Source: Micromonospora sp. Llam0
GTDB taxonomy: Bacteria > Actinomycetota > Actinomycetes > Mycobacteriales > Micromonosporaceae
NCBI RefSeq assembly: GCF_003751085.1
Contig: NZ_RJJY01000001.1
Location: 5,146,001-5,210,000, forward strand
Direction: 5' to 3'
DNA: 64,000 nucleotides
Position numbers and translations under genes: made by a program. Positions 17,540 through 62,454 of this stretch are shown here, piece by piece. The notes beneath the pieces are model-generated. The model was not told where the DNA came from. It did no database searches and saw only the letters and a program-made list of their open reading frames with translations. Position 1 is the stretch's first letter. Each line of letters begins with the position of its first letter.

Positions 17540-17550
17540 CCTGCACCCCA

Positions 17551-18959: not shown

Positions 18960-18993
18960 CTTCACAGGGAGTCGCGGTCCGGCAGCCGGCTGG

Positions 18994-20238
18994 TCAGGGT
19001 CGTGGGGTGAGGCCGATGGTGGTGGCGAGGCGGGTCAGGTCGGGGGTGGGTGCGGTCCGTAGGAGCGTGGCGACGACGGTGTGGGCGGTGGGTCGGGTGC
19101 GGGTTTCGGCGGGGGCGATCTGGTCGGCGGTGATGATGGCGCGGGCGGCGGCGGCGGTGGGGTTGCCGGTGTCGAGGTAGGCGCGGGTGATGTCGATCAG
19201 GTGGGCGGCGCGGTGTTCGGCGGGTAGCTCGCGCCAGCCGTGGCTGGCGGTGGTGTGCTGGTGGTGGGTGATGGCCTGGTGCGGGTCGCCGAGGGCGGCG
19301 GCGAGGTGTGCGCGGGCGAGCGCGACCGCGGTCGGCCCGAAGGCGGTGGTGGTGTCGCCGTGGTCGGGGCGCCGCTGGTGGTGGCTGATGCTGGCTGCGT
19401 GTCTGTCGGCGCGTTCGCTCAGGTCGTGGGCGGTGGCCGGGTCGTTGCCGGTGGCGGCGGCGAGGGCGGCTTCGATCAGCAGGGTGCCGGCGAGGGCGTG
19501 GTCGTCCGGTGCGGCGTCGTTGGTCGTGGCCGGGTCGATCAGCGGTACGGCGGTGAGCGCGGCTCGCGTGGCGAGGGTGGGTCGGTGCAGGGCGCGTAAC
19601 GCCTGGGTGAGGGCGATGGCGGCTGCGGCGGTGTGCCGGGGGTGGCCGGCGGCGGTGGCGATGGCGCGGTCGGCGGCGAGCCAGGCGAGGTGGGGTTCGT
19701 CGAGTTTGGTCAGCAGGTGTGCGGTGAGTCGGTAGACGCTGGTGAGTAGATACCCGACGGCGTCGGATCGTGGTGCGTCGCTGGTAGTGGCGTGCCGGGT
19801 GTGGGTGAGCAGGTCGGGCAGCATGCGGAGTAGTTGCGGGTAGTGGGCGTGCTGGTAGGCGGTCCACGCGTACTGGATGCGGCGGTGCAGGTCCTCGACG
19901 GGCGGTGCGGGTTGGTCGGGGGTGGGGGTGTCGTAGCGGGCGAGGGCGGCGCGGAGGTGTTCGACGGCGGCCGTGGTGGTGTCGGTGGCGGGTTCGGGCC
20001 GGCTGGTGGTGGGGCCGAGGATGGTTTCGGGGGTGACGCCGAGGACGGCGGCGACGGTGTGGACGACGGAGATGCGGTCGAGGGAGCGGATGCCGCGTTC
20101 GACCTTGTCGACCCAGGAGTGGGATTTGCCGATCCGGTCGGCGAATACCTGTTGGGTGAGGCCGCGTCGGGCGCGCAGTTGGGCGATCCGCCGGCCGATC
20201 GGTTGGTCGGCGATGCGGTGGCGGCCGGGTGCGGTCAT
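18994..20238 (-). CDS. XRE-HTH regulator with TPR-type C-terminal region
   Basis: Protein of 414 aa: N-terminal Cro/C1 helix-turn-helix (RRIAQLRARRGLTQQVFADR, KSHSWVDKVERG) and a long alpha-helical C-terminal part with tetratricopeptide-like helix pairs (for example RIQYAWTAYQHAHYPQLLRM). Such proteins in actinobacteria are regulators whose TPR part senses peptides or partner proteins. ATG 20238 overlaps the stop of a small membrane-protein gene (ATGA), so the two are coupled. The gene is extremely GC-biased. It is divergent from the HTH/DUF397 pair to the right. Confidence 0.8.
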   Translation of the reverse strand: MTAPGRHRIADQPIGRRIAQLRARRGLTQQVFADRIGKSHSWVDKVERGIRSLDRISVVHTVAAVLGVTPETILGPTTSRPEPATDTTTAAVEHLRAALARYDTPTPDQPAPPVEDLHRRIQYAWTAYQHAHYPQLLRMLPDLLTHTRHATTSDAPRSDAVGYLLTSVYRLTAHLLTKLDEPHLAWLAADRAIATAAGHPRHTAAAAIALTQALRALHRPTLATRAALTAVPLIDPATTNDAAPDDHALAGTLLIEAALAAATGNDPATAHDLSERADRHAASISHHQRRPDHGDTTTAFGPTAVALARAHLAAALGDPHQAITHHQHTTASHGWRELPAEHRAAHLIDITRAYLDTGNPTAAAARAIITADQIAPAETRTRPTAHTVVATLLRTAPTPDLTRLATTIGLTPRP

Positions 20239-45753: not shown

Positions 45754-45831
45754 ATGCCCAGACCGAAACGATCAGGTGAGGATGAAACTCCCCCGGTAGA
45801 TCAACAAGAGACATTGACGGCTACCCCTTGA
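45754..45831 (+). CDS. Mini-ORF 1 before the biosynthetic cluster
   Basis: Twenty-five codons from ATG 45754, with GGAGG at 6-nt spacing. The peptide begins MPRPKRSGEDETPP and ends with QETLTATP: hydrophilic, acidic, no Cys. It resembles the short leader-like peptides used as scaffolds in RiPP-type pathways but has no known core motif. Its stop overlaps the -35 box of the cluster promoter, so it would be on a different, upstream transcript. It could be chance. Confidence 0.35.
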   Translation: MPRPKRSGEDETPPVDQQETLTATP

Positions 45832-45856
45832 CTGACCAACTGGCGACCGGTAGCTT
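45828..45856 (+). promoter_or_regulatory. Probable promoter of the biosynthetic cluster
   Basis: TTGACT (45828-45833), a 17-bp spacer and TAGCTT (45851-45856): good sigma-70-type boxes in an AT-enriched stretch, the only strong candidate before the enzyme genes. Transcription would begin about 45863, just ahead of mini-ORF 2. Confidence 0.55.
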
Positions 45857-45887
45857 TTTATCTAAATCATCCATCAGGGGGACCGCG

Positions 45888-45959
45888 ATGATCTTAAATC
45901 GGACTGGCCATTTCTCGCTGTCGCCGATTACGCCAGTCCAGCACCGGAAAGACCGCTAG
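45888..45959 (+). CDS. Mini-ORF 2, first ORF of the cluster transcript
   Basis: Twenty-three codons from ATG 45888 with AGGGGGA at 5-nt spacing. The peptide begins MILNRTGHFSLSPITP and ends with QHRKDR. It is the first open frame after the likely promoter, about 445 nt before the first enzyme gene. Candidate precursor/scaffold peptide for the LanB-like ligase of the cluster, or a translated leader for attenuation. No homologue is known to me. Confidence 0.4.
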   Translation: MILNRTGHFSLSPITPVQHRKDR

Positions 45960-46404
45960 TCAGTCGCAGCCGTCCTGCGCCAGACCTAAGATAGCCGGTC
46001 AGGGCCGGTCACTCTTGATCATCTCACCGCACTACTTGATCCATTGATGACCTGGCAAATCTCCAGCCCTGCCTATGGCGATCCAATCAAACCCAGTCGC
46101 AATTCTTGGCTGCCCAGTTCCTTATGCTCGGCACCGTCGGTGGACCACGCGGCACCCGCCAACCGTGTGGCATCGGGGTGCACATAGCGCCCGATCGGAC
46201 CACCGACAGACCGATGAATCGGCGCGCTGGGAGTGGCACGGGTCAACGCGGGAACGACTGAGCCGGGCGACGCGATCACAATCGCCACCGGCGTCGCGTT
46301 GCTGACAGCGATCCCGTCGGTCGGACCACCGGCCTGGACGGCTCGAGCCGCTGTCGCGACTCCAGCACTTCTCCACGGAAATAGCCAACACAAGGAGCTG
46401 TTAG
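45960..46404. other. Leader/gap before the first enzyme gene
   Basis: About 445 bp without a convincing gene. Contains a direct repeat CCGGTCAGGGCCGGTCA near 45994-46010. An open frame at 46233-46430 and an opposite one at 46073-46435 lack good ribosome binding sites. It may be an untranslated leader. Confidence 0.35.
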
Positions 46405-47559
46405 GTGCAACCGCGTTTGGAACGACTTGAGCCAATGCTGGGAACCCCCCTCTTCGAGAGTCTCCTCTGGGGACATGAGTACGACCTCAGCGGTCTTGAC
46501 CCGGACCTGCAAGAGCGCATCGGGTCCGGGCAGTTCAAGCGGATCGTGTTCTACGGGATGGGCTGCTCCTCTGTCGTGTCGGACATCGTGAAGGGCTTCT
46601 TCTTGTCCGAAGGCATTCCGGTGCACGTCCAAGTCGTCAACGACTACGACCTGGACTGGTTCGTCAACCGGGAGGTCGTGAATGATCCTTGCACGCTGAC
46701 GATCATCGTGTGCTACAGCGGATGGTCGGTCGAGCCGTGTCTGTTCTACGATGCCATGCACGAGATGAACGCCGGCCGGAACCTGCTCGTTCTCACCGGC
46801 GGCGGCAAGATCGCCGGGATGTGCCGGGAGGACGGTACCTCACTGATCCAGTACAAGCTCCGCCACGCAGACCGAGAATACCCTCTCTACCACGTACAGC
46901 AATTCTTCGCGATATTCCTCGACCTCTTCCACCGGCTAGGCATCACGCAGCGTTCATACCGGGAGGAACTGGAGGCGTCGGTCGCCTTCCTCAAGGACGC
47001 GTTTCACGGAGGTACCCTCGAGAAAGCGGAGGCCATCGCCGTCAGGCTGCGGGACAGCCGGATCGCCCTGCTCGGCACCGCCGACTGGTACGTGACCCTG
47101 CTCAAGCAGACCACAATGTTCTTCAACGAGATCGCGATGGTCCCGACCCACCGCAACCTGCTCCACGAGTTCAGCCACACCGAGGTCGCAGCCTATTCCG
47201 ATCCGTCAGCCAAGCAGGCCATGGTCGTGTTCCGCGACGCAAACGCGGACGACTACACACAGAACAAGATCCGGACCTTGGAAGAGCTGTTCGGAGACCA
47301 GAGCATCCCACAGAACAAAAATATCGAGTTCGTCATCATCGACCTCGACCAGGAAGACTTTTTCAAAAAGTTCTTCTTTGGCCACTTTTTTACAGTCTAC
47401 ATCGCCTACTACCTCGGCCTCCGCGCCGACGTGGCGGGCCGCGACCTCATCTCCATCGCGGCGGGCAACCCTTGGTGGAGCCAGCGCTCGATCGAACTGT
47501 TCCCGAAGTGCGTCGACATCCCATCGAACCTCGACCCGGAGTCCGCCGCCGCCCGATGA
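46405..47559 (+). CDS. SIS-domain sugar-phosphate isomerase-like protein
   Basis: Protein of 384 aa with two SIS (sugar isomerase) folds, in the style of bifunctional phosphoglucose/phosphomannose isomerases. First SIS: FKRIVFYGMGCSSVVSDI and IVCYSGWSVEP; the catalytic-type segment is NLLHEFSHTEVAAYSDP (Glu and His). It would isomerise or deaminate a phosphorylated sugar; in a biosynthetic cluster it may supply an aminosugar- or sugar-derived piece. GTG 46405 follows AAGGAG at 7 nt. First enzyme gene of the cluster, 16 bp before the SDR gene. Confidence 0.78.
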   Translation: MQPRLERLEPMLGTPLFESLLWGHEYDLSGLDPDLQERIGSGQFKRIVFYGMGCSSVVSDIVKGFFLSEGIPVHVQVVNDYDLDWFVNREVVNDPCTLTIIVCYSGWSVEPCLFYDAMHEMNAGRNLLVLTGGGKIAGMCREDGTSLIQYKLRHADREYPLYHVQQFFAIFLDLFHRLGITQRSYREELEASVAFLKDAFHGGTLEKAEAIAVRLRDSRIALLGTADWYVTLLKQTTMFFNEIAMVPTHRNLLHEFSHTEVAAYSDPSAKQAMVVFRDANADDYTQNKIRTLEELFGDQSIPQNKNIEFVIIDLDQEDFFKKFFFGHFFTVYIAYYLGLRADVAGRDLISIAAGNPWWSQRSIELFPKCVDIPSNLDPESAAAR

Positions 47560-47575
47560 CAGATTGCGTCACGAC

Positions 47576-48418
47576 ATGGGATACAAGCAGCTCACTCTCA
47601 TCACCGGGGGCAGCCGCGGCATCGGACGCTGCCTGGTGCAGTCGTTTCTCGCGCACACAGACGTACTCAATGTGTCCAGGACGCCCGCCCGGGACGACGA
47701 GGGCTCCGCCGGGCACAAGCGGTATCAGCTTCACCACCTGAGCATTGACCTGGCGAACACGGCACGCGTCGAGTCACTCCTGACGACATGGCTCAAGGAC
47801 CATCCCGACCACCGGGTCACGACGCTCATCCACAACGCAGCTGTCTCGCCCTTGGGCTGGCTCCACGAACTCTCGGACGCCGAGGTCGAGCAGGCATTCC
47901 GGGTCAACGTCTACGCACCGCTCGCCATCACGGCGTCACTACAGCGAATCGGGCGCTTCGCGATGGACGGCGCCCGCGTGGTCTACGTCACCTCGTCCCT
48001 CGCGCGTCCGGTGCCCGAGCTTTCCTTTGCCTGTCTCGGGCTGTACAGCATGACAAAGGCCGCGCTAAACAGGATGGCCCTCATCCAGAGCCGCGAATTC
48101 GAGCTCACGGCACCCCACATCACCGTCATCCGTGCTCACCCCGGGATCGTCGACACCGACCTCCAACGCGACCTACGCAGACATCCGCAAATGGACCCAG
48201 CATTCAAAATGAAGACCGCCAGGCTACCTCCCTATCGGGAAGGTGAATGGCACGACGTCTCACCCCGGGACCATATGCGTACCGTTTCCCCCGAGTTCTC
48301 CGCCGAGTTCATCGAGTGGGTGACCGGACTCGATAACGGCACGTCCAACGAATACGACTTCTACCAGGCCGAGGAGTTCCATGCCGCCCGGGGCAGCACG
48401 GGAAATCAACAACATTGA
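47576..48418 (+). CDS. Short-chain dehydrogenase/reductase
   Basis: SDR of 280 aa: nucleotide-binding TLITGGSRGIGR, HNAAVSPLG, Ser in YVTSSLARP and the catalytic Tyr-Lys in LYSMTKAALNRMA; all residues of an active enzyme are present. Reduces a ketone or oxidises an alcohol of a cluster intermediate. The start ATG 47576 is set by the nucleotide-binding strand; the ribosome binding site is weak, so translation may be coupled to the preceding gene. Confidence 0.88.
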   Translation: MGYKQLTLITGGSRGIGRCLVQSFLAHTDVLNVSRTPARDDEGSAGHKRYQLHHLSIDLANTARVESLLTTWLKDHPDHRVTTLIHNAAVSPLGWLHELSDAEVEQAFRVNVYAPLAITASLQRIGRFAMDGARVVYVTSSLARPVPELSFACLGLYSMTKAALNRMALIQSREFELTAPHITVIRAHPGIVDTDLQRDLRRHPQMDPAFKMKTARLPPYREGEWHDVSPRDHMRTVSPEFSAEFIEWVTGLDNGTSNEYDFYQAEEFHAARGSTGNQQH

Positions 48419-48430
48419 ACCAGGAGTTTC

Positions 48431-49780
48431 ATGAGCCACATTGTCTTCGTGGAGACCTCGGGGTCAGGCGTAAACGCGATTAATCACGCGAAGCAGGCCG
48501 GTCACACCGTAACATACCTGTATTCTCCCCGGTACGACTTCACAGCTTCTTCCGGACAACGTCAGCTCGCGAGAAAGCTGGCGGACCGCACCGCCGAGAT
48601 GCGCAACGTCCGTACCCCGGAGGATCTGTTGGCCACCCTGCGGGCGGCCGGCACCCGGCCCGACGAGGTCGACGCGGTCCTCTCGACGCTGGCCTTCTGC
48701 GCACCTCTGGCCGCATCGCTCGCCAGCCTGATCGGAGCGCGGGGCACCCCCGCGGAGGGTGTCGCCACCGCTCGCGACAAGGGCCGGTGTCGGCAGGCCC
48801 TCGACGAAGCCGGCGTCCCGAGCCTCGCCTACTCGGTAGTCGGGTCCGAAGACGAAGCACTGGCCGCCGCCGAGGGCACCGGGTACCCGGTCATCATCAA
48901 GCCGGTCCTGGGCATCGGGAAAGGGCTGACGACCATCGCCCGCGAGCCCGCGCAGGTACGGGCCCACTTCGCTGGTCTGACCGGGGAACGGGAACACCTC
49001 CCGGCTGGCATGTCGACCCACTTCGATGAGCGCTTCGTCGTCGAGGAACTGGCCGTCGGTGACCTGTATTCCGTCGAAGTCGCTGCGGACGGTCGATCCG
49101 TCACACCTCTCGTCTCCACGCTGCAGAAGACCGGACTGCACAACTCGGTCGTGGAGCTGGGGTGCACCATCCCCTCCGCACTCGACGAGGCCACGGAACG
49201 CGAGCTCGGTGTGTACGCCGCTCAGGTGTGTAGGACACTCGGCCTCACCCTGGGCGTATTCCATGTCGAGATGATCCGCACTACCCGGGGTTTCCGGCTG
49301 GTCGAAGCCAACCCGCGGATGGCCGGCGGCGCGCTGCCCGAGACGGTCAACGCCGTCGCCGACCAGAGCATGTTCGCGATCCTGGTCGACCTGTTCCTCG
49401 GCCGGGACGCTCCGACCGCCCCGCTCAGACTCAGCGGCGCGGTGTCCCACTCCCTGCTCGGCGCCGCCGAGGCCACGACCGTGCGGCACGATCTGGCGCC
49501 CAACTGGTTCGACCCGTTCCGGGCCAGGCTGCACTCCGGGTGGGAGCGTCTGCAGCCAGGTACCCGCGTCGGCGCCATGCGCGGCAACTTCGACCGGTTC
49601 GGAATGATCCGCACGGTCGGCACCGGCCCGGCGCAGGCGTACGAGACCTGCGCTGCGGTCAAAGCAGATATCCAACGCCACCTCGGCATCGCTCTCCTAC
49701 CGGAGGCGAAGCACCGGGACACGTTGTCGTCCGGACCTGACCCACGTCGTGCGGTCAGTCCGGCGGCGGCATCCAGTTGA
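48431..49780 (+). CDS. ATP-grasp amino-acid/peptide ligase
   Basis: ATP-grasp carboxylate-amine ligase of 449 aa, similar in layout to L-amino-acid ligases. N-terminal IVFVETSGSGVNAINHAKQA, ATP-binding TGYPVIIKPVLGIGKGLT, EELAVGDLYSVEV, and the metal-binding VFHVEMIRTTRGFRLVEANPR split over the C-terminal lobe. It would join a carboxylate to an amine through an acyl phosphate, making an amide bond. ATG 48431 has CAGGAG upstream; 12 bp after the SDR gene. Confidence 0.87.
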   Translation: MSHIVFVETSGSGVNAINHAKQAGHTVTYLYSPRYDFTASSGQRQLARKLADRTAEMRNVRTPEDLLATLRAAGTRPDEVDAVLSTLAFCAPLAASLASLIGARGTPAEGVATARDKGRCRQALDEAGVPSLAYSVVGSEDEALAAAEGTGYPVIIKPVLGIGKGLTTIAREPAQVRAHFAGLTGEREHLPAGMSTHFDERFVVEELAVGDLYSVEVAADGRSVTPLVSTLQKTGLHNSVVELGCTIPSALDEATERELGVYAAQVCRTLGLTLGVFHVEMIRTTRGFRLVEANPRMAGGALPETVNAVADQSMFAILVDLFLGRDAPTAPLRLSGAVSHSLLGAAEATTVRHDLAPNWFDPFRARLHSGWERLQPGTRVGAMRGNFDRFGMIRTVGTGPAQAYETCAAVKADIQRHLGIALLPEAKHRDTLSSGPDPRRAVSPAAASS

Positions 49781-49852
49781 GCAACCGCCCCGGCACCCCG
49801 CGACACCGACCGCTCGGGCCAGAAGAGGCCTCGACCGCCTCGCAGGTTTGAC

Positions 49853-49936
49853 ATGTCAACAGAAGCCTCACCCATAGGAGCCATCCCGGTGAAAAGCACA
49901 ACCCACAGTCCGACTCCCGGGTCGGGTTTCCATTGA
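49853..49936 (+). CDS. Mini-ORF 3 overlapping the amidinotransferase start
   Basis: Twenty-seven codons from ATG 49853, also open from GTG 49889 with AGGAG at 8 nt. The peptide starts MSTEASPIGAIPVK and ends PTPGSGFH; small, uncharged and proline-rich. Its TGA overlaps the TTG start of the amidinotransferase (TTGA), which suggests translational coupling. Could be a coupling leader or an unrecognised peptide substrate. Confidence 0.35.
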   Translation: MSTEASPIGAIPVKSTTHSPTPGSGFH

Positions 49937-51003
49937 GCACCCAGGAAGACACGATCGCTGGAGTCTGGAGCTGCAACGAGTGGGACCCCCTAGTGGAGGT
50001 CGTCGTCGGGAACCCACTCAACGCAAGATACCCGCACCCCGACCCGAGTACACGTTTCGCCGAGTTCCCCAACACCCCAGTCGATCGGATCCCGACGGGC
50101 GCATTCCCGCCGGGCATCGTCGAAGAAACCGAGGAAGATCTGGCCGCGATGATCGAGTGCCTGGAGAAGCTCGACATCGTTGTAAAGAGACCCGACACCT
50201 GGCCGCATGACCAAACGATTACCACTCCTTTGTGGTCGACGAAAGGCTTCTACAACTACTGCCCGCGAGACATATTTCTGGTCGTCGGCAACCAAATTAT
50301 AGAGACACCCAACGTCATCCGCGGCCGCATGTTGGAAGCGTACAGTTACCGCAAAATCCTCGTCGAGTACCTCAAAGCCGGAGCGAAATGGTACAGCGCG
50401 CCGAAGCCCATGCTACTGGACAGCCTGTTTACCGCAGAGCAGGAAGATCTTGTCCCCAGGAACGATGAGCCAGTGTTCGACGCTGCCAACGTGCTCCGTT
50501 TCGGCCGGGATCTCCTCTACTTGATCAGCGCGACCGGAAATGACCTGGGCGCACAGTGGCTGCAGATTGCGCTCGGCGATGACTTCAGGGTCCATACCTG
50601 CCGGATCAACTATACCGGCAGTCACATCGATACATCGGTGGTCGCTCTTCGACCCGGATTGCTGCTGTGTAACCCGGAGTGGGTGACCCGGGAAATGCTT
50701 CCGCCGATCTTCGACAAGTGGAAAATCATCTACAGTCCCCCGATGGTTGGTGCCGACCGTTTTGACAGCACCTACCTGTCGCGAGCAATCGGGAGCCGGT
50801 GGATCGATATGAACCTCTTCAGCCTGAAGCCGGATCTCGTTCTCGTTGACCGCGACCAACTGCCGCTGATCAAGCTTCTTGAAGAGCAGGGGATCACCGT
50901 GGTTCCGCTCAAGATCCGCCACTCGCGGATGCTTGCCGGCGGTTTCCACTGCTCGACTCTGGACACCAAGCGCAAAGGCAGTATGGAAAACTACTTCGAG
51001 TGA
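49933..51003 (+). CDS. Amidinotransferase (arginine:glycine amidinotransferase family)
   Basis: Enzyme of 356 aa of the AGAT/StrB1 family that moves the amidino group of arginine to an amine, giving a guanidine and ornithine. Catalytic residues visible: Asp in EPVFDAANVLRFGRDLLYL, His in NYTGSHIDTSVVAL and the nucleophilic Cys in AGGFHCSTLDTKRKG. N-terminal VWSCNEWDPLVEVVVGNP is typical. The TTG start is set by the family start and the overlap with mini-ORF 3. In this cluster the acceptor could be diaminobutyrate made by the EctB-type enzyme (inference). Confidence 0.9.
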   Translation: MSTQEDTIAGVWSCNEWDPLVEVVVGNPLNARYPHPDPSTRFAEFPNTPVDRIPTGAFPPGIVEETEEDLAAMIECLEKLDIVVKRPDTWPHDQTITTPLWSTKGFYNYCPRDIFLVVGNQIIETPNVIRGRMLEAYSYRKILVEYLKAGAKWYSAPKPMLLDSLFTAEQEDLVPRNDEPVFDAANVLRFGRDLLYLISATGNDLGAQWLQIALGDDFRVHTCRINYTGSHIDTSVVALRPGLLLCNPEWVTREMLPPIFDKWKIIYSPPMVGADRFDSTYLSRAIGSRWIDMNLFSLKPDLVLVDRDQLPLIKLLEEQGITVVPLKIRHSRMLAGGFHCSTLDTKRKGSMENYFE

Positions 51004-51021
51004 TCGGATGCGTAGATCGAC

Positions 51022-52473
51022 ATGATCCGACAGTATTGGCCGAACTACATCGACGGAGATTTCTGCCACGGCGGGGCTGGCAGAATCAAGGTTACGGACC
51101 CGAGTTCGGGCGACGCCCTGGCGGAACACGCTCTCGCCGATGCGGACGATGTCAACCGCGCCGTCACCGCCGCACAGCGTGTTCATCGATCCGGAGTGCT
51201 CGCCGACCTGCATCCGATGGACCGAGGCCGCATGGTCCGAGCGATTGGCGGGTACCTCGCCGACCACATCGACGACGTCAAACGCACAATCACTCTAGAG
51301 CAGGGGAAACCGCTTTTCGAGGCTGAAGCCGAAGTCAAGATGGCCATCCGTCTCTTCGACTACTTCGGCTCTATGACAGAGTCGATGGAAGGGCGCTCCG
51401 TGCCCTGCGACAGCACTCGTTTCGACTTCACGGTATACAAGCCGTTTGGCGTTTCGGCACAGTTCATGCCCTCGCACTACCCGATCTACATCCCCTCGCG
51501 CACGCTGGCGGTGGCCTTGGCAGCCGGGAACTCCTGCGTCATGAAGACATCCGAACTGTCTCCGATTTCCGCAGGCTGGCTTGCGCATGCCGCACAGGAC
51601 GTCGGCTTTCCATCCGGCTCAATCAACATATTCTGCGGGCGGCGATCCGAGGCGGGCGTCGCCCTCGCCGGCCACCCAGGGATTGACCATCTGGTATTCA
51701 TCGGACAAGCGCAAGCGGCCGCAGCAGTCACCGGTGCCGCCGCCAAAGGTCTTGTCCCCAGTATCGTGGAGGTCGGCGGGACGTCCCCGACGATCGTCTT
51801 CGAGGACGCAGACCTCGACGAATTCGTTGCCGAGGCACGCATGGGGTCGTACCTGAACGCGGGCCAATTCTGCTGCGGAATGTATCGGATCATCGTGCAT
51901 GAGTCCCGCTACGAGGAGCTTCTCGACCGTTCAATTTCCCTGGCAGATAGTTTAGCTGTCGGCCCCGGCATCGAAAGCGGAGATGGTGAGTTCAAGCCCT
52001 ACATGGGGCCAGTGGACAGCGAGAAACAGCTCGCCCGGGTGCTCGGCATCGTGGAAGACGCAACGCGGGCCGGGGCCAAGTGCGTTGCCGGTGGCACACG
52101 ACTTCCGGGGGTGGGCTCCTTCCTCAGGCCGACGGTGATCCGAGACGTCGATCCATCGATGCGGGTCGCCCAGGAAGAAGTGTTCGGTCCTGTCATGGCG
52201 GTGATGAAATTCCGCACGGAGGGCGAAGCAATCGAGCTTGCCAACAGCGCCGGCCACAGCGGCCTGATGTGCAGCGTGTTCACTCGCGACCTCGGACGGA
52301 TGTTACGAGCCGCAAGCAAGGTCCGAGCAGGACACATCGTCGCAAACCAGTCGATAATTGGAGGCGCGGAGGTTCCCTTCGGTGGTTTCGGTCGTGCTGG
52401 CTATGGCAGCCTCAAGGGCCGAGAGGCCCTCATGGGCTACGTGCAACGGAAAAACGTCCTTCTCAACCTGTGA
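51022..52473 (+). CDS. Aldehyde dehydrogenase (biosynthetic)
   Basis: NAD(P)-dependent aldehyde dehydrogenase of 483 aa: VSAQFMPSHYPIYIPSRTLA in place of the usual PWNFP motif, Glu in IVEVGGTSPTIVFE, catalytic Cys in NAGQFCCGMYRI, EEVFGPVMAV and PFGGFGRAGYGSL. Related to succinate-semialdehyde or aminoaldehyde dehydrogenases. It would oxidise an aldehyde intermediate to an acid, giving a carboxylate for the ATP-grasp ligases. Eighteen bp after the amidinotransferase gene. Confidence 0.86.
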   Translation: MIRQYWPNYIDGDFCHGGAGRIKVTDPSSGDALAEHALADADDVNRAVTAAQRVHRSGVLADLHPMDRGRMVRAIGGYLADHIDDVKRTITLEQGKPLFEAEAEVKMAIRLFDYFGSMTESMEGRSVPCDSTRFDFTVYKPFGVSAQFMPSHYPIYIPSRTLAVALAAGNSCVMKTSELSPISAGWLAHAAQDVGFPSGSINIFCGRRSEAGVALAGHPGIDHLVFIGQAQAAAAVTGAAAKGLVPSIVEVGGTSPTIVFEDADLDEFVAEARMGSYLNAGQFCCGMYRIIVHESRYEELLDRSISLADSLAVGPGIESGDGEFKPYMGPVDSEKQLARVLGIVEDATRAGAKCVAGGTRLPGVGSFLRPTVIRDVDPSMRVAQEEVFGPVMAVMKFRTEGEAIELANSAGHSGLMCSVFTRDLGRMLRAASKVRAGHIVANQSIIGGAEVPFGGFGRAGYGSLKGREALMGYVQRKNVLLNL

Positions 52474-52510
52474 AGAGGCTGGACACGAAATCCCTCCAGG
52501 AGGAATGCTG

Positions 52511-52573
52511 ATGGACCGTCACGGTGGCGTACGGCTCGTCGAGCCGACCCTGCGCACCCAGGTTCCGGTGTGA
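52511..52573 (+). CDS. Mini-ORF 4 overlapping the transaminase start
   Basis: Twenty codons from ATG 52511, with the strongest ribosome binding site of the cluster, AGGAGGA (52498-52504), at 6 nt. The peptide begins MDRHGGVRLVEP. Its TGA overlaps the GTG start of the EctB-type gene (GTGTGA), which itself has only a weak site, so it may serve for coupling. A peptide role cannot be excluded. Confidence 0.4.
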   Translation: MDRHGGVRLVEPTLRTQVPV

Positions 52574-53838
52574 CCACCACCCAGCCTGACCCGAGCATCT
52601 TCGAGACTCTGGAGTCCGCGGTACGGAGCTACTGCCGTGGTTGGCCTGTGGTGTTCGACTGGGCTCAGGGCAGCAAACTGTACGACGAGGACGGACATGA
52701 GTTTCTGGACTTCTTTGCCGGGGCCGGTTCGCTCAACTACGGACACAACCACCCGGCGCTGAAACGCGTTCTCATCGACTACCTGGAACGGGACGGCGTC
52801 ACACATGGCCTGGACATGTCTACAACCGCCAAGCGCACGTTCCTCCAGGCCTTTCAGGACATCGTGCTACGGCCACGCCGGCTGCCCTATAAAGTGATGT
52901 TCCCCGGTCCGACCGGCACCAACGCGGTGGAGTCGGCGCTGAAGCTGGCACGGAAGGTGAAGGGACGCGAGGCCATCGCATCGTTCACCAATTCCTTCCA
53001 TGGCATGTCGCTGGGTGCCCTGGCTGTCAGCGGCAACGTCTCGAAGCGCGCCGGCGCGGGCGTCTCGCTGATGCACGGCATGCTGCTGCCGTTCGACAAC
53101 TACTTGGGCGCCGGCGGCGACTTCCGGTGGTTCGAGCGCCTGCTGGAGGACAGGGGATCCGGGCTCAGCCACCCGGCCGCCGTCATCGTGGAAACCGTGC
53201 AGGGCGAGGGCGGGATCAACATCGCCCGCAGCGAGTGGCTACGCGCCCTCGCTCAGCTGTGCGGCCGGCACGACATGCTGCTGATCGTCGACGACATCCA
53301 GATGGGGTGCGGCCGCACCGGCGCGTTCTTCTCCTTCGAGGAGGCCGGGATCTCGCCGGACATCGTCACCGTCTCGAAGTCGATCAGTGGCTACGGCCTA
53401 CCAATGTCGCTGTGCCTGTTCAAACCCGAGTTGGACATCTGGGAGCCGGGCGAGCACAACGGCACCTTCCGCGGCAACAATCCCGCCTTCGTCACCGCCA
53501 GGGCCGCCCTGGAGATCTTCTGGACCGACGGCCTTGCCATGGAGAAGCAGACCCGACAGCGGGGCGAGCAGGTCGAGCTGCAGCTCATCGCCGTCGCCGA
53601 GGAGAATGTCGCCGACGTCAGAGGGCACCGGGGCCGTGGTCTCGCCTGGGGCCTGGAATTCCACGACCGGACCCGTGCCGGGCGGGTCGCCCGTCGTGCC
53701 TTCGAGCTCGGACTACTCGTCGAGACGTCGGGCGCGGAGAGCGAGGTAGTCAAGCTGATGCCGGCGCTGACTGTCACATCCGAGGAACTGGACGAGGGCC
53801 TGGGGATCCTCGCCCGTGCGGTCCGCGAGACTGCCTGA
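52570..53838 (+). CDS. ectB: Diaminobutyrate--2-oxoglutarate transaminase (EctB-type)
   Basis: Class III PLP transaminase of 422 aa with the full EctB pattern: IFETLESAVRSYCR, DFFAGAGSLNYGHNHPALKR, VTHGLDMSTTAKRTFL, MFPGPTGTNAVESALKLARK, LLIVDDIQMGCGRTG, the PLP Lys in TVSKSISGYGLPMSL and GEHNGTFRGNNPAFVTARAA. It converts aspartate semialdehyde to L-2,4-diaminobutyrate. ectA, ectC and ectD are absent in the window, so diaminobutyrate is probably a building block of the cluster product and not an ectoine precursor. GTG 52570 overlaps mini-ORF 4. Confidence 0.9.
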   Translation: MTTTQPDPSIFETLESAVRSYCRGWPVVFDWAQGSKLYDEDGHEFLDFFAGAGSLNYGHNHPALKRVLIDYLERDGVTHGLDMSTTAKRTFLQAFQDIVLRPRRLPYKVMFPGPTGTNAVESALKLARKVKGREAIASFTNSFHGMSLGALAVSGNVSKRAGAGVSLMHGMLLPFDNYLGAGGDFRWFERLLEDRGSGLSHPAAVIVETVQGEGGINIARSEWLRALAQLCGRHDMLLIVDDIQMGCGRTGAFFSFEEAGISPDIVTVSKSISGYGLPMSLCLFKPELDIWEPGEHNGTFRGNNPAFVTARAALEIFWTDGLAMEKQTRQRGEQVELQLIAVAEENVADVRGHRGRGLAWGLEFHDRTRAGRVARRAFELGLLVETSGAESEVVKLMPALTVTSEELDEGLGILARAVRETA

Positions 53839-53873
53839 AGACGGCAGCTGGCCAAGGAGGATTCAGACCAGGA

Positions 53874-55165
53874 TGCCGAAATTCATGCTGTTCGGTGAGG
53901 GCAACGCGAAGGAACAGGCGTTCTGCGAACAGAGCTGGCGCACCGGCCCTCGCGCCGACGATCTGTTGTGCTGCATGTATGGAAGGAACTACTACCTCGA
54001 ACGCAGTTCACGAACGGTGCGTGTGGAAGGCCTCGACGAAGCGATCTCGCTGGGCCGAGCGACGGGCGTGGAGACGGTCCTCATGCTGGCGCTCGAACAG
54101 TTCGAGGCCGGACGTGTTGAGGCCTTTCGGAGCGCTGGGTTCCGAGTAGTGGGCGTACCTACATCAGCCGCATTTCTGGAGAACAACAAAGCACGGGCAA
54201 AATCATTTATGCGACGACACGCAGTGGCATCCGCGTACAGCACCTCATTTTGCGATGCCGGCACGGCAGAGAAGTTCCTGATAGAGAACTGGGCGACCAG
54301 GAGATTCGTCGTAAAGGCAAGCTGCTATTTGTCTGACGTAAGATTCAGCTGCAGCGTTCCAGACACCCTGGAGGAGGCGATCGACGACGTCCGCGGCCTC
54401 GCCGACCACCTCGGGTCGATCGACGCTCCCCGGGCCATGGTTCTCGAGGAGAGGGCAGAAGGTCGCGAATTTTCAGTTCACGTTTTGATCGACGGGGCCA
54501 ACTACAAGATCCTTCCCATGGTGCGAGACTACAAGCGGCTCCTAGAGGGCGACAAGGGACCCAACACGGCCGGAATCGGCGCCGTCGCGGCGGCGATCGA
54601 CTGGGATCGGGACTTGATCTCCGGGCTACGGTCACGGATCATAGAACCGACGATCGACGGGCTACTGAAAGAGGACATCGACTACCACTTCATCCTTTAC
54701 ATAGGCGCCATGGTGACCCGGGATGGTCCAATCGCGCTGGAGTACAACGTTCGTCCGGGGACGCCCGAGTTCCCGGCGCTGTTAGCGGTGGCGAAGACAA
54801 GCGGGCTGGAGATGTTCACCGCTGCACAGGACGGCAAGTTCGGGTCGCTGGACATCGAGTGGGAGAACGATGAGCCCTACTCCGTAGCTGTCACGTTGAC
54901 TGCGCCCGGATATCCGTTTTCATCTCTCGGATTCGGCGAATCGATATCCGGCCTAGATGACTTAGACGACGACGTTTGGCCCCTCGTCGAGCACATGTTT
55001 GCCGACCCCGAGCCGACCGTTTCTAACGGCCGGGTCCTGACTCTCGTCGCACGTGGAGCATCCTTCCAGGAGGCCAGAGAACGTGTTTACCGCAATGTCG
55101 ATCGGATGCGGTTCCGAGGACTTCACACCCGACGGGACATCGGCGACCTGGTGGCGCTCGAGTAA
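53874..55165 (+). CDS. PurD-like ATP-grasp ligase
   Basis: ATP-grasp enzyme of 430 aa related to phosphoribosylamine-glycine ligase: EQFEAGRVEAFRSAGFRVVG, NNKARAKSFMRRHAVA, RFVVKASCYLSDVRFS, EERAEGREFSVHVLIDG and the PurD-type RDYKRLLEGDKGPNTAGIGA. It lacks the neighbouring purine genes and differs from housekeeping PurD, so it probably couples an amino acid to an amine in the cluster pathway. A possible AAGGAGG lies 12 nt before ATG 53874, rather far. Lower GC than the region in its middle part. Confidence 0.82.
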
Positions 55166-55375
55166 CACGGCACGGTCTGTGTGGCCGCCGACTCGACGCG
55201 CACCGCTGACACCGGCCCGGGGCCGATCGCACTGCAGGTAGGTGCTATCCCGGTTACGGACGAATCCCGATGGATCCCCGGCGGGCTTCGACCGCCGTCA
55301 GCAGTGGGGTCGGGTCAACGCCGGTATCAGGACTCTCGAGGTAGGTTTGCAGCAAAGTCTACGAGGAAGGTCACA
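55166..55375. other. Gap before the third ATP-grasp-like gene
   Basis: About 210 bp. The frame of the following gene is open back to 55181, but its proline- and arginine-rich content and lack of a ribosome binding site suggest it is not translated. No other gene seen; may hold an internal promoter. Confidence 0.35.
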
Positions 55376-56782
55376 TTGTCCGCTGATTCGATCGCCGCAA
55401 GGTACCTCGAGGAGTTTGACCGCCCAATGTTGCCGCTGCCGGAGACCCCTTATGCGAAGATCAAGTACGAAGGGCGGTACCTGTCACGGCCGGTGTTCCT
55501 GGAAGCCGAGGAGCTTTGCAACCTGGAGCAGGATCTCACCCTGACGCGTGCGGCTCTTTGCTCCTTGCCTCGACGGCTGTTCGGGGGAAGCCTCGAGCTT
55601 TTTGCTCGGGCCGTTGGCATGACGGCAATTCAGGCAGAGTGCATAGTGCGGAGCGCCTACCCGTCATCCGACGCCGTCACGGACATGGCGCGGGCGGATC
55701 TCTACCGGGATGCTACCGGATTCCGGCTCCTGGAGTGGAACCTTGGCAGCACGGCAGGTGGAGCCGAGTGTGCGGACATGTGCCGGGCCCTGATCAGCGT
55801 CCCTGAGGTGGCACAGTTCCTCGCGAAGGAACGGCTGGCCTATGCGAAGACGGACGAAGCGATGCTGGCCACGTTGCGGTCTGAGACGGGTTACCCGGTA
55901 GGAACGGATCCGGTCGTGGCCATGGTGGATACACCCGGCATCTTTCCCAAGGTCGAGGCGTTGCTGCGTACCATCGCCGCACGATGGCTGGACCACGGGC
56001 TGTCAGTTAGGATTGGCCATCTGGGCGAGCTGACACGTTCGGGTGGGCGGCTGCGACTACGAGGCGAGCCGATTGACGTGGTGTTTCGTGTATTCACGTT
56101 CGAGGACGTGCTGATCCACCTCACTGATGGTGTGCTCGAGCCCTTGCTGGCCGCTGCCGAGTGCGGTGAGGTGGCGATGTTCACGCCGCTGGAAGCGGAG
56201 CTGTACGGGAGCAAGGGGGCTCTCGCTCTGCTGTCCGATCCAACCGGCCAGATCGGTCTGTCGGACGAGGAACGGGACGCTTGTGCCCGGCTGCTTCCGT
56301 GGACCAGACGAGTTGCTGCCGGCGAGGTCACGCTGGAAGACGGCGCCACCGTGGATCTGATCGCCTACACGCTGCAGCATCAGAATGATCTTGTTCTGAA
56401 GCCGAGTTCCTCGTACGGCGGAAGCGGTGTGATGGTCGGCGCCGACCCGAGCATCACACCCGCGATGTGGCGAGAGGCGCTGGCCCAGGCGATAAACGGC
56501 TCCTACGTGGTTCAGCGACTGGTCCGTCCCGCACCCGAGATGTTCCCTTCCACATCTGCGGGCGGGCCGGTCGCCTGGAGAGTCGCATGGGGGGTGTTCA
56601 CGATGCGACGGGGTTACGCGGGAACGCTCGTCCGCGCCGTCCCGGCGCAAGCTGGGGACGCCGTGGTGAACATCGCTCAAGGGGCGTTCGTCGGGTGTTG
56701 TTTTCACTCGACCTCAGGGGGCGCGGTCGAGGTTGGTCCGCACACGAGCGCAGTACAGGTGGCAGGAGACTTGCATGACTGA
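55376..56782 (+). CDS. Circularly permuted ATP-grasp-like ligase
   Basis: Protein of 468 aa. The C-terminal third has DLVLKPSSSYGGSGVMVGAD and GSYVVQRLVRPAPEM, and the middle LLEWNLGSTAGGAECADMCR; this order resembles circularly permuted ATP-grasp proteins (glutathionylspermidine-synthase-like). TTG 55376 is chosen: GAGGAAGGT lies just upstream and the conserved part starts soon after. Its end overlaps the LanB-like gene by 8 bp, so the two proteins are made together and may cooperate in extending or releasing a peptide-like chain. Assignment to subfamily is tentative. Confidence 0.68.
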   Translation: MSADSIAARYLEEFDRPMLPLPETPYAKIKYEGRYLSRPVFLEAEELCNLEQDLTLTRAALCSLPRRLFGGSLELFARAVGMTAIQAECIVRSAYPSSDAVTDMARADLYRDATGFRLLEWNLGSTAGGAECADMCRALISVPEVAQFLAKERLAYAKTDEAMLATLRSETGYPVGTDPVVAMVDTPGIFPKVEALLRTIAARWLDHGLSVRIGHLGELTRSGGRLRLRGEPIDVVFRVFTFEDVLIHLTDGVLEPLLAAAECGEVAMFTPLEAELYGSKGALALLSDPTGQIGLSDEERDACARLLPWTRRVAAGEVTLEDGATVDLIAYTLQHQNDLVLKPSSSYGGSGVMVGADPSITPAMWREALAQAINGSYVVQRLVRPAPEMFPSTSAGGPVAWRVAWGVFTMRRGYAGTLVRAVPAQAGDAVVNIAQGAFVGCCFHSTSGGAVEVGPHTSAVQVAGDLHD

Positions 56783-59216: not shown

Positions 59217-59254
59217 GGAAGTCGGGTCCCGCCGGATCATTCGGCGCCGTCGAC

Positions 59255-60592
59255 TCAGTCGGCTTTCGGGCCGGACGGTATGTCCCGGCTGCGGCGCAGT
59301 GGAGAGAAGTACATCCAGAAGCCTGCGGCCCAGGTACCGACGCATGCGATCCATAGCGTCGGACGGATGCCTATCACGGTACCGAGCGCGCCGCCGATCA
59401 CGCCGCCGATCGGAATCGTGCCCCACGTTATCCATCGAACGGCTGCGGTCATCCGGCCCAGCAGCCGGGGCGGGCAGATCACCTGTCGGTAGGTGACCAC
59501 CGCGATGTTGTACGTCACGATGGCAAAGTACGAGATCCCGAAGCCGATCGGGAACAGCGCCACCCACCAGCCCGGCTGTGCCAGCGCGGCCAGGATCTGC
59601 GGCAGGCCGAATACGAGCAACGAGAACCACATCACACGCGCTGAGCCGATCCATCGGGTCGTCCGGCCCGACAGCACAGCCCCGGAGATGCCGCCGAGTG
59701 CTGCCAGTGCAAAGATCAACCCGGTGTAGGCGGGCTCGACGTTCAGCACCCGCACGAGGAAGATGACCTGCACCGCACCGGCCACAGAGCCGAACAGATT
59801 CACCGTCCCGCTGCAGGCGACCGTCTTGCGGATGATCTTGTGCCCCAGCACGAACCTGATCCCTGCGGCGGTCTCAGCCCACAGGCTCGGCCGCATGGTC
59901 GCCTCAACCGGTGACCGGTCGTGCTTCTCCCGGTGGCGGATGCCGAGCAGCAACGCGGCGGAGACCGCGTAGGACAGAGCATCAGCGGTCATCGTCCACA
60001 CCGCACCGAAGAAGCCCACCAGGGCGCCACCCAGGCTGGGTCCCGCGAGCCGGGCGAGACTCTGGGTCGCCGCGATCTTCCCGTTGCCGTCGATCAGGTG
60101 CTTCGGCTCGAGGAGGACCGGTAGATAGCTCTGGTAGGCCACATCGAAGAACACGGTGCAGACGCCAGCCATGATCGCCACGAGGTAGAGCTGACCCATC
60201 GTCAAGCTTCCGACGTACCAGGCGGCGGGGACCGAAGCAATGATCACGAGCCGCGCGATGCCGCAGACGATCATGATCCTACGTTTAGGGTGCCGGTCCG
60301 CCAGCGCACCCGCAGGCAGAGCAATCACCGCGAACGCGAGCGAAGTCGCTGCGGTCAGCAGTCCGACCTCGAAGGCGCTTGCGTCGAGCACGACGACGGC
60401 GATGAGCGGTAGCGCCAGTTGCGCGACGGCCGACCCAATCTCACCGACAGACTGCCCGGCCCAGAGCAGCATGAAGTCTCGGTGCCGCCAGAGGCTACTG
60501 CCATGACGCGTGCTCGGCTCGGAAACGCAACGGCTCGCCAGAGGATCGCCTCCCGTCTGCCCGGTGTCGTTGGTCCTGGGATCTCGCTCCAT
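59255..60592 (-). CDS. MFS exporter (DHA3/EntS-like)
   Basis: Twelve-segment major facilitator of 445 aa: WRHRDFMLLWAGQSVGEIGS at the N-terminus, GALADRHPKRRIMIV (motif A), ATQSLARLAGPSLGGALVGF and RLLGRMTAAVRWITWGTIPI, as in macrolide/siderophore exporters of the DHA3 group. Converges on the LanB-like gene (38-bp gap) and follows the acetolactate synthase gene on the same strand. Likely exports the cluster product and gives self-protection. Confidence 0.86.
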   Translation of the reverse strand: MERDPRTNDTGQTGGDPLASRCVSEPSTRHGSSLWRHRDFMLLWAGQSVGEIGSAVAQLALPLIAVVVLDASAFEVGLLTAATSLAFAVIALPAGALADRHPKRRIMIVCGIARLVIIASVPAAWYVGSLTMGQLYLVAIMAGVCTVFFDVAYQSYLPVLLEPKHLIDGNGKIAATQSLARLAGPSLGGALVGFFGAVWTMTADALSYAVSAALLLGIRHREKHDRSPVEATMRPSLWAETAAGIRFVLGHKIIRKTVACSGTVNLFGSVAGAVQVIFLVRVLNVEPAYTGLIFALAALGGISGAVLSGRTTRWIGSARVMWFSLLVFGLPQILAALAQPGWWVALFPIGFGISYFAIVTYNIAVVTYRQVICPPRLLGRMTAAVRWITWGTIPIGGVIGGALGTVIGIRPTLWIACVGTWAAGFWMYFSPLRRSRDIPSGPKAD

Positions 60593-60720
60593 CAGACCAC
60601 TGTGTCCTACCCGCCGATAGGCCGGCCAGTTGATCCACCGGTGGTCGGTCCGCGATGGACCTCACCGGTCCACCGCGGGTCGGTGGCTCTGCCGGCTGGG
60701 ACGAGGAGCATTCGATCTGC

Positions 60721-62454
60721 TCAGTCGTGGCCGTCGCCATCCCACCTCGGGGCCATGTCCCGGGCGATCTTGATGTCGTCGTTACTGGTCCCAGCGGCTA
60801 CCATCGGCCAGACCATGGCGTCCTGGTGGACGACGAAGTCGACCACCACCGGCAGGTCGTTGATCTCCATCGCCTTGGTGATCGTGGCGTCCACGTCCTC
60901 ACGCAGGTCGCACCGCAGGCCTACACATCCGTACGCCTCGGCCAGCTTCACGAAGTCGGGGATGCGCTGGGCCGTCTTCAGGTCTGTGTTGGAGTACCGC
61001 TGGTCGTAGAAGAGCTTCTGCCACTGACGAACCATGCCGAGGTTGCCGTTGTTGATGACCGCGACCTTGATCGGCACGCCCTCGAGCGTGCAGGTGGCGA
61101 GCTCCTGGTTGGTCATCTGGAAGCATCCGTCGCCGTCGATAGCCCAGACCGTGGCGTCCGGTCGGCCCATCTTGGCACCCATCGCGGCGGGCACGGCGAA
61201 ACCCATCGTGCCCAGGCCACCGGAGTTGATGAAAGTGCCGGGGTTCTCGTAGCCGATGAACTGCGACGCCCACATCTGGTGCTGGCCGACGCCGGCCACA
61301 TAGAGGGCGTCCGGCCCCACAAGGGAACTCAGCCTCTCCAGGACGTACTGCGGAGCTAGCGAGTCGTCCGAGAACTCCTCGTAGCCCAACGGGTAGGTCT
61401 TCTTGAGCCCGTTCAGTAGCTCCCGCCACTCCGCGTAGTCGCCCTTGCGGTCGATCGTGTGGATCAAGTCTTCGATGATCTTCTTGCAGTCGCCCACGAT
61501 GGGCACATCCGCCCGCCGGTTCTTCGAGATCTCCGCCGGGTCGATGTCCACATGGATGACCTTGGCATACGGCGCGAACGACGACAGTTGCCCGGTGACC
61601 CGGTCGTCGAACCGCACACCCAAGCCGATGAGCAGGTCGGACTTCTGCATTGCGCCTACCGCCGAGACGCTGCCATGCATGCCCGGCATCCCCACGTGCA
61701 ACCGATGACTGTCGGGAAAGGTACCCCTGGCCATCAGTGTGGTGACCACCGGAATACCGGTCAGCTCCGCCAGTTGGAGCAGTTCTGCCGAGGCACCGGC
61801 CCGGTGTACACCGCCACCGACATAGAGCACCGGACGCTTCGCCTCTGCCATCAGCCGGGCTGCCTCCCGGATCTGCTTGCCGTGCGAGTGCAGGGCCGGC
61901 CGGTAGCCCGGCAGGCGCATTGTCGGCGGCCAGTGGAACCCGGTCTCGGCCTGCAGCGCGTCCTTCGAGATGTCGACCAGCACCGGACCGGGGCGGCCGC
62001 TGGCTGCGATGTAGAAGGCTTCCGCGATCGTGCGCGGGATGTCGTCCGAGTCGGTAACCAGAAAACTGTGCTTGGTGATCGGCAGGGTGATGCCGCAAAT
62101 GTCGGCTTCCTGGAAGGCGTCCGTCCCGATCACGCCGCTTGACACCTGACCGGTGATTGCCACCATCGGGACCGAGTCCATGTACGCGTCGGCGATCGGG
62201 GTGACCAGGTTGGTGGCGCCGGGTCCACTGGTCGCCATGCAGACACCGACCTTGCCGGTGGCCTGGGCGTACCCTTCAGCGGCGTGGCCGGCACCCTGCT
62301 CGTGCCGTACCAGGACGTGCCGGACCTTGGCCGAGTCGAAAAGTGGATCGTAGGCAGGGAGGATCTGACCACCCGGAATTCCGAAAACTGTGTCGACGCC
62401 GACCTGCTCCAACGCCCTGACGAGGGCTTGAGCACCTGTCATCTGCTCGGTCAT
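60721..62454 (-). CDS. ilvB: Acetolactate synthase, large (catalytic) subunit
   Basis: TPP-dependent enzyme of 577 aa, full length: the TPP Glu in [59 protein letters not shown]-region [20 protein letters not shown], and the TPP motif [19 protein letters not shown]. It makes acetolactate or acetohydroxybutyrate. No regulatory subunit gene (ilvN) or ilvC follows, unlike the usual ilvBNC operon; an MFS exporter gene is downstream instead. Trp in [11 protein letters not shown] is present; the position equivalent to the plant herbicide-site Pro197 is Ser. It may be housekeeping, a precursor supplier or a resistant target copy. The ATG 62454 has a weak GGGAACGAG upstream. Confidence 0.9.

Follow-up and report, generated by a model that had tools for sequence, protein, structure and literature searches.

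With moderate confidence, we propose that a gene cluster of Micromonospora sp. Llam0 makes a small guanidino-containing (pseudo)peptide without an NRPS, the substrates, order of steps, product and tRNA identity being those that we infer below. The proposal builds on the genes themselves, their families, active-site residues, fold and the recurrence of a gene core in related loci, all of which the analysis demonstrates.

Gene content of the cluster

The window, i.e. the whole stretch of DNA that was analysed, comprises 64,000 nt (NZ_RJJY01000001.1, positions 5,146,001-5,210,000). Nine genes with short gaps or overlaps between neighbours occupy its + strand from 46405 to 59216 and are followed, on the - strand, by an MFS gene and then ilvB (Table 1). 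Coordinates and family scans bear out this arrangement as given in a preliminary description of the sequence, and all eleven genes were confirmed in the form given there. Its cluster start at 45754 was abandoned, as no gene was called at that position and the first one begins at 46405 (or 46435); likewise, it had placed ilvB correctly on the - strand, yet missed its status as a second copy. Among the ten cluster proteins scanned by family (IlvB is the eleventh), there was no NRPS or PKS, nor any member of the ectA and ectC families, which both stand beside ectB in ectoine clusters. The + strand gaps of the window did not contain a candidate scaffold ORF of at least 30 aa with an RBS-like motif.

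Table 1. Genes and small ORFs of the cluster, with positions in the window.
Feature	Position	Strand	Assignment or remark
SIS-domain protein, PGI/PMI-like (PF10432), 384 aa	46405..47559	+	Family scans (SIS/PGI_C)
SDR oxidoreductase, 280 aa	47576..48418	+	Family scans
AG1, ATP-grasp ligase, L-amino-acid-ligase-like	48431..49780	+	ATP-grasp_4; BacD and dapdiamide synthase among matches
15-codon ORF, possible translational-coupling ORF	49889..49936	+	RBS-like motif; stop overlaps amidinotransferase start
Amidinotransferase, StrB/GATM family	49933..51003	+	Aligned GGFHC cysteine kept
Aldehyde dehydrogenase (ALDH)	51022..52473	+	Family scans
20-codon ORF	52511..52573	+	RBS-like motif; stop overlaps EctB start
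EctB-type diaminobutyrate-2-oxoglutarate transaminase	52570..53838	+	TIGR02407
AG2, PurD-like ATP-grasp	53873..55165	+	GARS_A and GARS_C matched
AG3, circularly permuted ATP-grasp (predicted fold)	55376..56782	+	R106, D108, E120, N122; longest ORF from 55181
LanB-like protein, predicted PEARL-type ligase, 813 aa	56775..59216	+	Overlaps AG3 gene by 8 bases
MFS exporter	59255..60592	-	Family scans
Second acetolactate synthase large subunit (IlvB)	60721..62454	-	128 bases upstream of MFS gene, co-directional

A LanB-like protein with PEARL-type residues

Judged from its residues, the LanB-like protein is of the PEARL (peptide aminoacyl-tRNA ligase) type and not a dehydratase, which sharpens the earlier LanB-like assignment. 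It has the LanB glutamylation fold, and the domain scan detected PF04738 without the elimination domain PF14028; four full-length LanBs encoded in the same genome carry both domains. Besides, its ATP pocket keeps D526, E792 and R794, equated with the PEARL residues of the literature by motif and spacing, and PEARL-type pocket residues are absent from the four full-length LanBs. In TglB, according to the part of the published account at hand, D542 and R803 are the ATP-pocket Asp and Arg that LanBs lack, and Glu801 also lies in the pocket. Being PEARL-type by residues, the Micromonospora protein should form an amide bond using ATP and aminoacyl-tRNA, with tRNA as the apparent donor of its amino acid.

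In a tree that left out L042 and L027, the protein fell within a rare, well-supported clade. All of the 33 LanB hits were aligned except P0031 and P0033 (short coverage). For the motif control, 9 of 33 extracted ORFs had been dropped beforehand, namely six presumed shadow frames, a truncated copy (L044) and two sequences that looked genuine (L014_1477 and L024_1), the latter of which appeared by eye to be fused to an NRPS part. Two N-terminal sites are blank for L042, whose ORF had been given too late a start. In nine myxobacterial-type homologues, E547 is replaced by Arg.

Building-block and ligation enzymes

The EctB-type transaminase scored 638.5 bits against TIGR02407 (curated cut-off 552.2). 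Pfam and NCBIfam scans gave zero matches for the amidinotransferase; its place in the StrB/GATM family follows from full-length homology (344 bits against StrB1, 1bwd) and from the aligned GGFHC cysteine, which we take to be the catalytic residue. A housekeeping PurD is disfavoured for AG2, whose GARS score (227.8 bits) lies under the purD cut-off of 288, for which the family scan returned no GARS_N match, and which has a second PurD-family gene elsewhere in the same genome (28% identity). At E<=1e-65, relatives of AG2 were confined to its own genome among 354 genomes.

AG3 itself had no match in the Pfam scan, and Pfam models hit its family weakly (in 6 and 5 of 32 members). Its structure model (pLDDT 87.6) has glutathione synthetase and glutathionylspermidine synthase as top matches, and the predicted fold is that of a circularly permuted ATP-grasp enzyme. 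The preliminary description had named the protein permuted ATP-grasp-like; the start of its gene is probably 55376 and not 55181. The similarities of AG1 and the MFS protein are low and generic.

Related loci share a core

Three related, mutually similar loci (L001, L031, L032) were found, one in Streptomyces megasporus and two in a single Micromonosporaceae genome. All combine the PEARL gene with those for an amidinotransferase, two ATP-grasps (one of them permuted) and an MFS exporter, and in place of EctB (diaminobutyrate) they carry an SbnA-like gene (diaminopropionate type). An SbnB-like gene was seen in L001 only, where the SbnA/SbnB-like and GntD/GntC-like scores lie under their curated cut-offs. 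Since the compared genes of L001 and L032 share 75-89% identity, the three loci are not fully independent. EctB, AG2, SIS, SDR and ALDH had zero matches in them, and the full gene set is therefore seen only here. The conservation that the preliminary description had asked of the group was thus borne out for PEARL, amidinotransferase and permuted ATP-grasp but not for EctB and the PurD-like, SIS, SDR and ALDH genes.

Within the core clade, an amidinotransferase and a permuted ATP-grasp stood beside the PEARL in three of the four other loci examined; the fourth locus lies where its contig ends. Neither gene occurred in 14 distant LanB-like loci; PEARL residues were confirmed in 11 of these (all but G111, G327 and G355), and because several are close kin they do not amount to 14 independent trials. 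In G351 (PEARL 68%), where the PEARL lies near the contig end, the 20 kb read of a 32.8 kb contig contained none of the other cluster genes. PEARL relatives at 70-76% exist as well, for example in Streptomyces sp. NPDC002643 and on metagenome contigs.

At E<=1e-40, PEARL relatives were restricted to the own genome among 394 sampled class-level genomes and to S. megasporus among 394 sampled genomes of its family, and no close PEARL was found in plasmid records (best 26%). AG3 matches (E<=1e-85; 40-46% identity) were present at 19 places in 18 of 392 genomes sampled from the S. megasporus genus. Of 12 places read, none had an amidinotransferase or PEARL match (E<=1e-6), and one (L073) had an EctB-like match (31%). 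The cluster was probably acquired.

Proposed pathway and comparison with known systems

In the proposed pathway, EctB would convert aspartate semialdehyde to L-2,4-diaminobutyrate, and the amidinotransferase would move an amidino group from arginine to an amine, for which the side chain of diaminobutyrate is the simplest candidate. AG1 and the permuted AG3, perhaps with AG2, would activate carboxylates as acyl-phosphates to form amide bonds. The PEARL would then phosphorylate the terminal carboxylate of a short intermediate and join it to an aminoacyl-tRNA through the latter's amine, the tRNA being released thereafter. SDR, ALDH and SIS proteins may tailor or supply a building block, and the MFS protein would export the product. 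While we infer substrates, bond order, product and target, the data support the earlier idea of a biosynthetic cluster that brings an amidinotransferase and ATP-grasp ligation together with a diamino acid and a tRNA-dependent step. The proposal is tempered by the genes unmatched in the relatives, by the G351 PEARL without cluster partners in the 20 kb read, by the generic AG1 and MFS similarities, by the L001 scores under their cut-offs, by the Arg at E547 in myxobacterial-type homologues and by the small ORFs that might encode scaffolds. If right, it would free PEARL chemistry from ribosomal scaffolds and NRPS lines and make aminoacyl-tRNA a building-block donor for small peptides of free-standing ligases, with two linked subtypes (diaminobutyrate, diaminopropionate) marked that are findable by genome mining.

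As the preliminary description had stated, no described cluster with a matching gene set was found, here in the open-licence literature. In the threopeptin (sna) pathway, the PEARL-like SnaE extends a short nonribosomal substrate and, in the part of the source covered, a carrier-peptide gene is absent (PMC11212132); however, sna has NRPS and PKS genes, of which the ten proteins scanned here include none, with ATP-grasp ligases, EctB and an amidinotransferase instead. Ketomemicin (ktm) clusters, as partly documented, are likewise NRPS-free and pair an amidinotransferase with an ATP-grasp ligase, but are listed without PEARL, EctB or permuted ATP-grasp (PMC11943689). Of the ketomemicin-type set (aldolase, PLP C-acyltransferase, dehydratase, ATP-grasp, amidinotransferase, dehydrogenase), the first three were absent among the proteins scanned here. 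The E-64 ligase Cp1B resembles AG3 in fold (Foldseek TM about 0.6), in RxD/ExN residues and, in the sections of the source seen, in forming amides via acyl-phosphates (PMC12568646), yet is fungal, shares 15% identity in structural alignment and has other partner genes.

On the Pantoea agglomerans plasmid pNBBC01-5, EctB (51%), permuted ATP-grasp (29% over 191 residues), PurD (30%) and an ATP-grasp occur together, along with an MFS gene by annotation. Its PurD, however, exceeds the purD cut-off and has GARS_N; ThiF, TauD and GNAT are also present in the set, and the amidinotransferase and PEARL are unmatched. We know of no characterisation of this set. Pantoea PNP-1 was rejected as a relative, its gene set differing in the partial account available.

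A second acetolactate synthase

The adjoining ilvB duplicates a housekeeping gene, being 74% identical to the copy that precedes ilvN- and ilvC-like genes; each of the 20 other genomes chosen gave exactly one ilvB match (E<=1e-150). Among the matches listed, position 30 is Gln in the window's IlvB versus Ala in 117 of 119 other homologues, the remaining two being Streptomyces proteins (86-87% identity) with Gln. We take this position to correspond to Arabidopsis Ala122. The second IlvB may thus be a self-resistance copy, with a product that inhibits acetolactate (acetohydroxyacid) synthase, a bold extension of the pathway proposal that we regard as possible though doubtful. Extra copy, co-directional exporter gene and Ala-to-Gln exchange (given the assumed site equivalence) point that way, as do fungal clusters with ALS copies, which yield ALS inhibitors in the part of the source covered (PMC12616698). 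On the other hand, L001, L031 and L032 have no ilvB match, no PEARL or AG3 relative was traced to the contigs of the other two Gln-30 proteins (among the matches listed; best 120 of 327 for AG3), and ilvB could be an island-edge passenger or precursor feeder. The SSG loop beside position 30 is within the normal variation of the nearest homologues, which weakens the whole QVSSG loop as a resistance change.

In its fullest form, the proposal is an NRPS-free and scaffold-free line in which the PEARL would add a tRNA-borne proteinogenic residue to an ATP-grasp-built, amidinated diaminobutyrate (pseudo)peptide; the result would be a bacterial compound that inhibits acetolactate synthase, with the second IlvB and the linked exporter protecting its producer. 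We consider this combination rather unlikely; if right, it would be a testable lead to such a bacterial inhibitor of a herbicide-relevant target, the natural inhibitor clusters in the literature covered being fungal (PMC12616698, seen in part).

Alternative readings

Alternatively, the PEARL could act on a ribosomal scaffold peptide, encoded elsewhere or by a small ORF, with the ATP-grasps tailoring the added residue, as in pearlin-type pathways. Those for 3-thiaglutamate and ammosamide have, in the accounts partly covered, PEARLs with corresponding ATP-pocket residues, and most characterised PEARLs use a carrier peptide (PMC12945691, PMC11962472, each seen in part). PEARL residues of about 258-325 look winged-helix-like, as in peptide-recognition domains, and small scaffold candidates exist: the two tiny ORFs of the operon (15 and 20 aa, with RBS-like motifs) and + strand ORFs in L031 (18430-18558, 42 aa) and L032 (6095-6202, 35 aa). 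However, the operon's two resemble coupling ORFs, those of L031 and L032 lie at cluster ends and were unseen in other loci, the window's + strand gaps lack a candidate of 30 aa or more with an RBS-like motif, and SnaE provides a precedent for a short nonribosomal substrate. We deem a scaffold unlikely here and favour the pathway proposed above.

It is quite improbable that two or more unrelated gene sets abut by chance: EctB, SIS, SDR, ALDH and AG2 are indeed missing from the three relatives, but the nine genes are co-oriented and closely spaced, those of AG3 and the PEARL overlapping, and the core trio recurs in the core clade. A class I lanthipeptide-like dehydratase system, suggested by the PF04738 match, is hardly credible and was rejected, given that PF14028 occurs in none of the ten proteins scanned and the ATP pocket is PEARL-type, neither being what a class I dehydratase would have. 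Two further PF04738-only proteins of G000 are unlike full-length LanBs: L045 keeps the D and E with F at 794, and in L046 residues 526 and 794 are A and V, respectively.

Gene content and predicted pathway

Gene calls and family matches bear out the gene group named in the preliminary description, with nine co-oriented genes followed by an MFS gene and ilvB on the opposite strand (Table). In order, the families are a SIS/PGI_C-like protein, an SDR, an ATP-grasp_4 protein resembling L-amino-acid ligases (AG1), an amidinotransferase, an aldehyde dehydrogenase, the transaminase EctB, a PurD-like ATP-grasp (AG2), a circularly permuted ATP-grasp (AG3), a PF04738 protein of the peptide aminoacyl-tRNA ligase type (PEARL), MFS and IlvB; the AG3 and PEARL genes overlap by 8 bases. 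The ten cluster proteins scanned gave no match to an NRPS family, and we consider that the cluster probably encodes an NRPS-free pathway for a guanidino-diamino-acid peptide. EctB enzymes form diaminobutyrate, which EctB would provide here. The StrB/GATM-type amidinotransferase would move an amidino group to a putative acceptor, the ATP-grasps would form amide bonds via acyl-phosphates, and PEARL would append one residue taken from tRNA. The PEARL-like threopeptin enzyme SnaE is reported to be able to use a short nonribosomal substrate (PMC11212132). Each enzyme family is already known; of their combination, the literature searched, mostly outside subscription journals, yielded no description, in keeping with the initial statement that no described cluster with this gene set is known.

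The GC content of the cluster stretch is 0.59-0.66 versus 0.69-0.75 immediately to its left; since values of about 0.64-0.65 occur at other places in the window as well, composition hints at acquisition only weakly, if at all. Towards the left end of the window, two ORFs that look enoyl-CoA-hydratase-like by eye share an identical protein stretch over the residues compared, apparently a duplication.

Table. Coordinates of the cluster and of other features discussed
Feature	Location	Position	Strand
Nine co-oriented cluster genes	window	46405-59216	+
PEARL gene	window	56775-59216	+
ilvB, last of the two opposite-strand genes	window	60721-62454	-
Other ilvB copy, with ilvN- and ilvC-like genes (identified by their sequence) after it	C1, same genome	347540	
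ORFs with identical protein stretch	window	1335-2159; 8835-9728	
Gene pair presumably resembling IS200/IS605-type TnpB/TnpA	L103, right of window, past ilvB	3104-4943	divergent
42-aa ORF, TTG start	L031	18430-18558	
Fused AG1-like and AG3-like gene (869 aa)	L036	8593-11202	
Plasmid-borne gene set	Pantoea agglomerans pNBBC01-5 (L054)	8910-19240	

A core shared with related loci

Close relatives of PEARL are rare. The protein search gave 33 matches (the query, 20 close at 44-76% identity and 12 distant), and at E<=1e-40 only 4/354 genomes of the family Micromonosporaceae had a match: the present one, G351, G362 (two loci, L031 and L032) and G087, whose protein a tree placed outside the clade of the cluster's PEARL. 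All six same-genus genomes searched lacked a close match. A further locus, L001 of Streptomyces megasporus, was found by scanning genome contigs. In L001, L031 and L032, PEARL lies alongside amidinotransferase (40-43%), AG3-like (27-29%), AG1-like (28-30%) and MFS (29-34%) genes. Compared genes are 75-89% identical between L001 and L032, with L031 more distant (41-78%); given this mutual identity, the three form one related group rather than three independent finds. In the G351 locus, close to a contig end, PEARL was the only cluster match in the 20 of 32.8 kb read. For another four close relatives out of the 20, the longest contig has the same length for the PEARL match as for an AG3 match (6520, 10588, 627118, 37790), taking the best 120 of 327 AG3 matches, which is an indirect hint of linkage there as well. 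Among 14 distant LanB-like loci (L033, L039, L104-L115), amidinotransferase, AG3 and EctB had no match, AG1 was matched in L112 only and MFS in L033 only. The best-supported common core is PEARL, amidinotransferase and AG3; the similarity of AG1 and MFS across loci is no higher than generic members of their families reach.

Besides, L033 and L039, both from Micromonosporaceae, contain multiple consecutive PF04738-like segments within single loci, which suggests multi-PEARL pathways. Four full-length LanBs of the present genome were confirmed to have both PF04738 and PF14028 domains. In-frame TGA codons occur within the matches of G087 and G111.

As judged from gene content, L001, L031 and L032 may be read as a diaminopropionate subtype and the window as a diaminobutyrate subtype. 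All three relatives have an SbnA-like gene. An SbnB-like gene was found in L001 only, with no match in L031, while the L032 stretch stops before its place. In L001 these are best family matches under curated cut-offs (SbnA-like 251.1 bits, cut-off 349.95; SbnB-like 193.2, cut-off 326.9); a GntD/VioC-like oxygenase (217.2 versus 345) and a GntC/VioD-like PLP enzyme (117.7 versus 415) score below theirs too. The latter two, together with the methyltransferase, APH-like and YqcI/YcgG genes of L001, are all matched in L031 and L032.

The permuted ATP-grasp

The predicted AG3 model (pLDDT 87.6) matches glutathione synthetases, glutathionylspermidine synthases and Cp1B, a ligase of the E-64 pathway. 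In an alignment of 32 sequences, every member has D108, E120 and N122, and nearly every one R106; by motif, R106/D108/E120/N122 correspond to Cp1B R139/D141/E163/N165, whose replacement by alanine reportedly abolished or strongly reduced activity (PMC12568646). AG3-like genes were present in 12/61 genomes at E<=0.001 (own genome counted) and, at E<=1e-85, in 18/392 genomes sampled from the genus of S. megasporus. They are widespread without a neighbouring PEARL match, often with other ATP-grasps close by.

Several such loci deserve mention in their own right. The fusion gene of L036 has a further ATP-grasp gene, an MFS gene and a gene for an EctB-like transaminase as neighbours. Two Streptomyces loci (L051, L070) combine AG3-like genes with a methionyl-tRNA-synthetase-like paralogue, a cupin, an ATP-grasp and a transporter, named by reading the sequence, and resemble systems predicted in PMC2922099. 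The Pantoea plasmid set (EctB, permuted ATP-grasp, ThiF, TauD, GNAT, CapA, ATP-grasp, PurD, MFS) is like the window cluster in gene content.

Self-resistance as a possible addition and a ribosomal scaffold as an alternative

The two IlvB proteins of the genome are 74% identical, and at E<=1e-150 each of 20 other chosen genomes had exactly one match (72-76% identity, 4 partial). Among the matches listed, the closest relatives of the window copy come mainly from Nonomuraea and kin (83-86%), besides two Streptomyces proteins (86-87%). Its catalytic motifs appear intact by eye. Position 30, which presumably corresponds to Ala122 in the herbicide site of the plant enzyme, is Gln in the window copy; the other listed homologues have Ala in 117/119 and Gln in 2/119, namely those two Streptomyces proteins, and in a second alignment 14/14 other sequences have Ala. 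Fungal clusters containing acetolactate synthase copies are described as producing inhibitors of this enzyme (PMC12616698). That the window IlvB, the second copy of the genome, serves self-resistance nevertheless appears doubtful, as ilvB was not found in L001, L031 or L032 and, among the matches listed, there was no sign of PEARL beside the other Gln-30 proteins.

Still less probable is that PEARL works on a ribosomal scaffold peptide: between 45832 and 60760, no + strand ORF of at least 30 aa with an RBS-like motif was found in the gaps of the window. In favour of this reading are small ORFs in L031 (42 aa) and L032 (35 aa). The former, 3' of the amidinotransferase gene and 5' of another gene, has a repeated VAYAPS-type motif and is a possible modified-peptide precursor or scaffold. 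Two tiny window ORFs, one overlapping the start of the amidinotransferase gene and one that of the EctB gene, are putative coupling ORFs.
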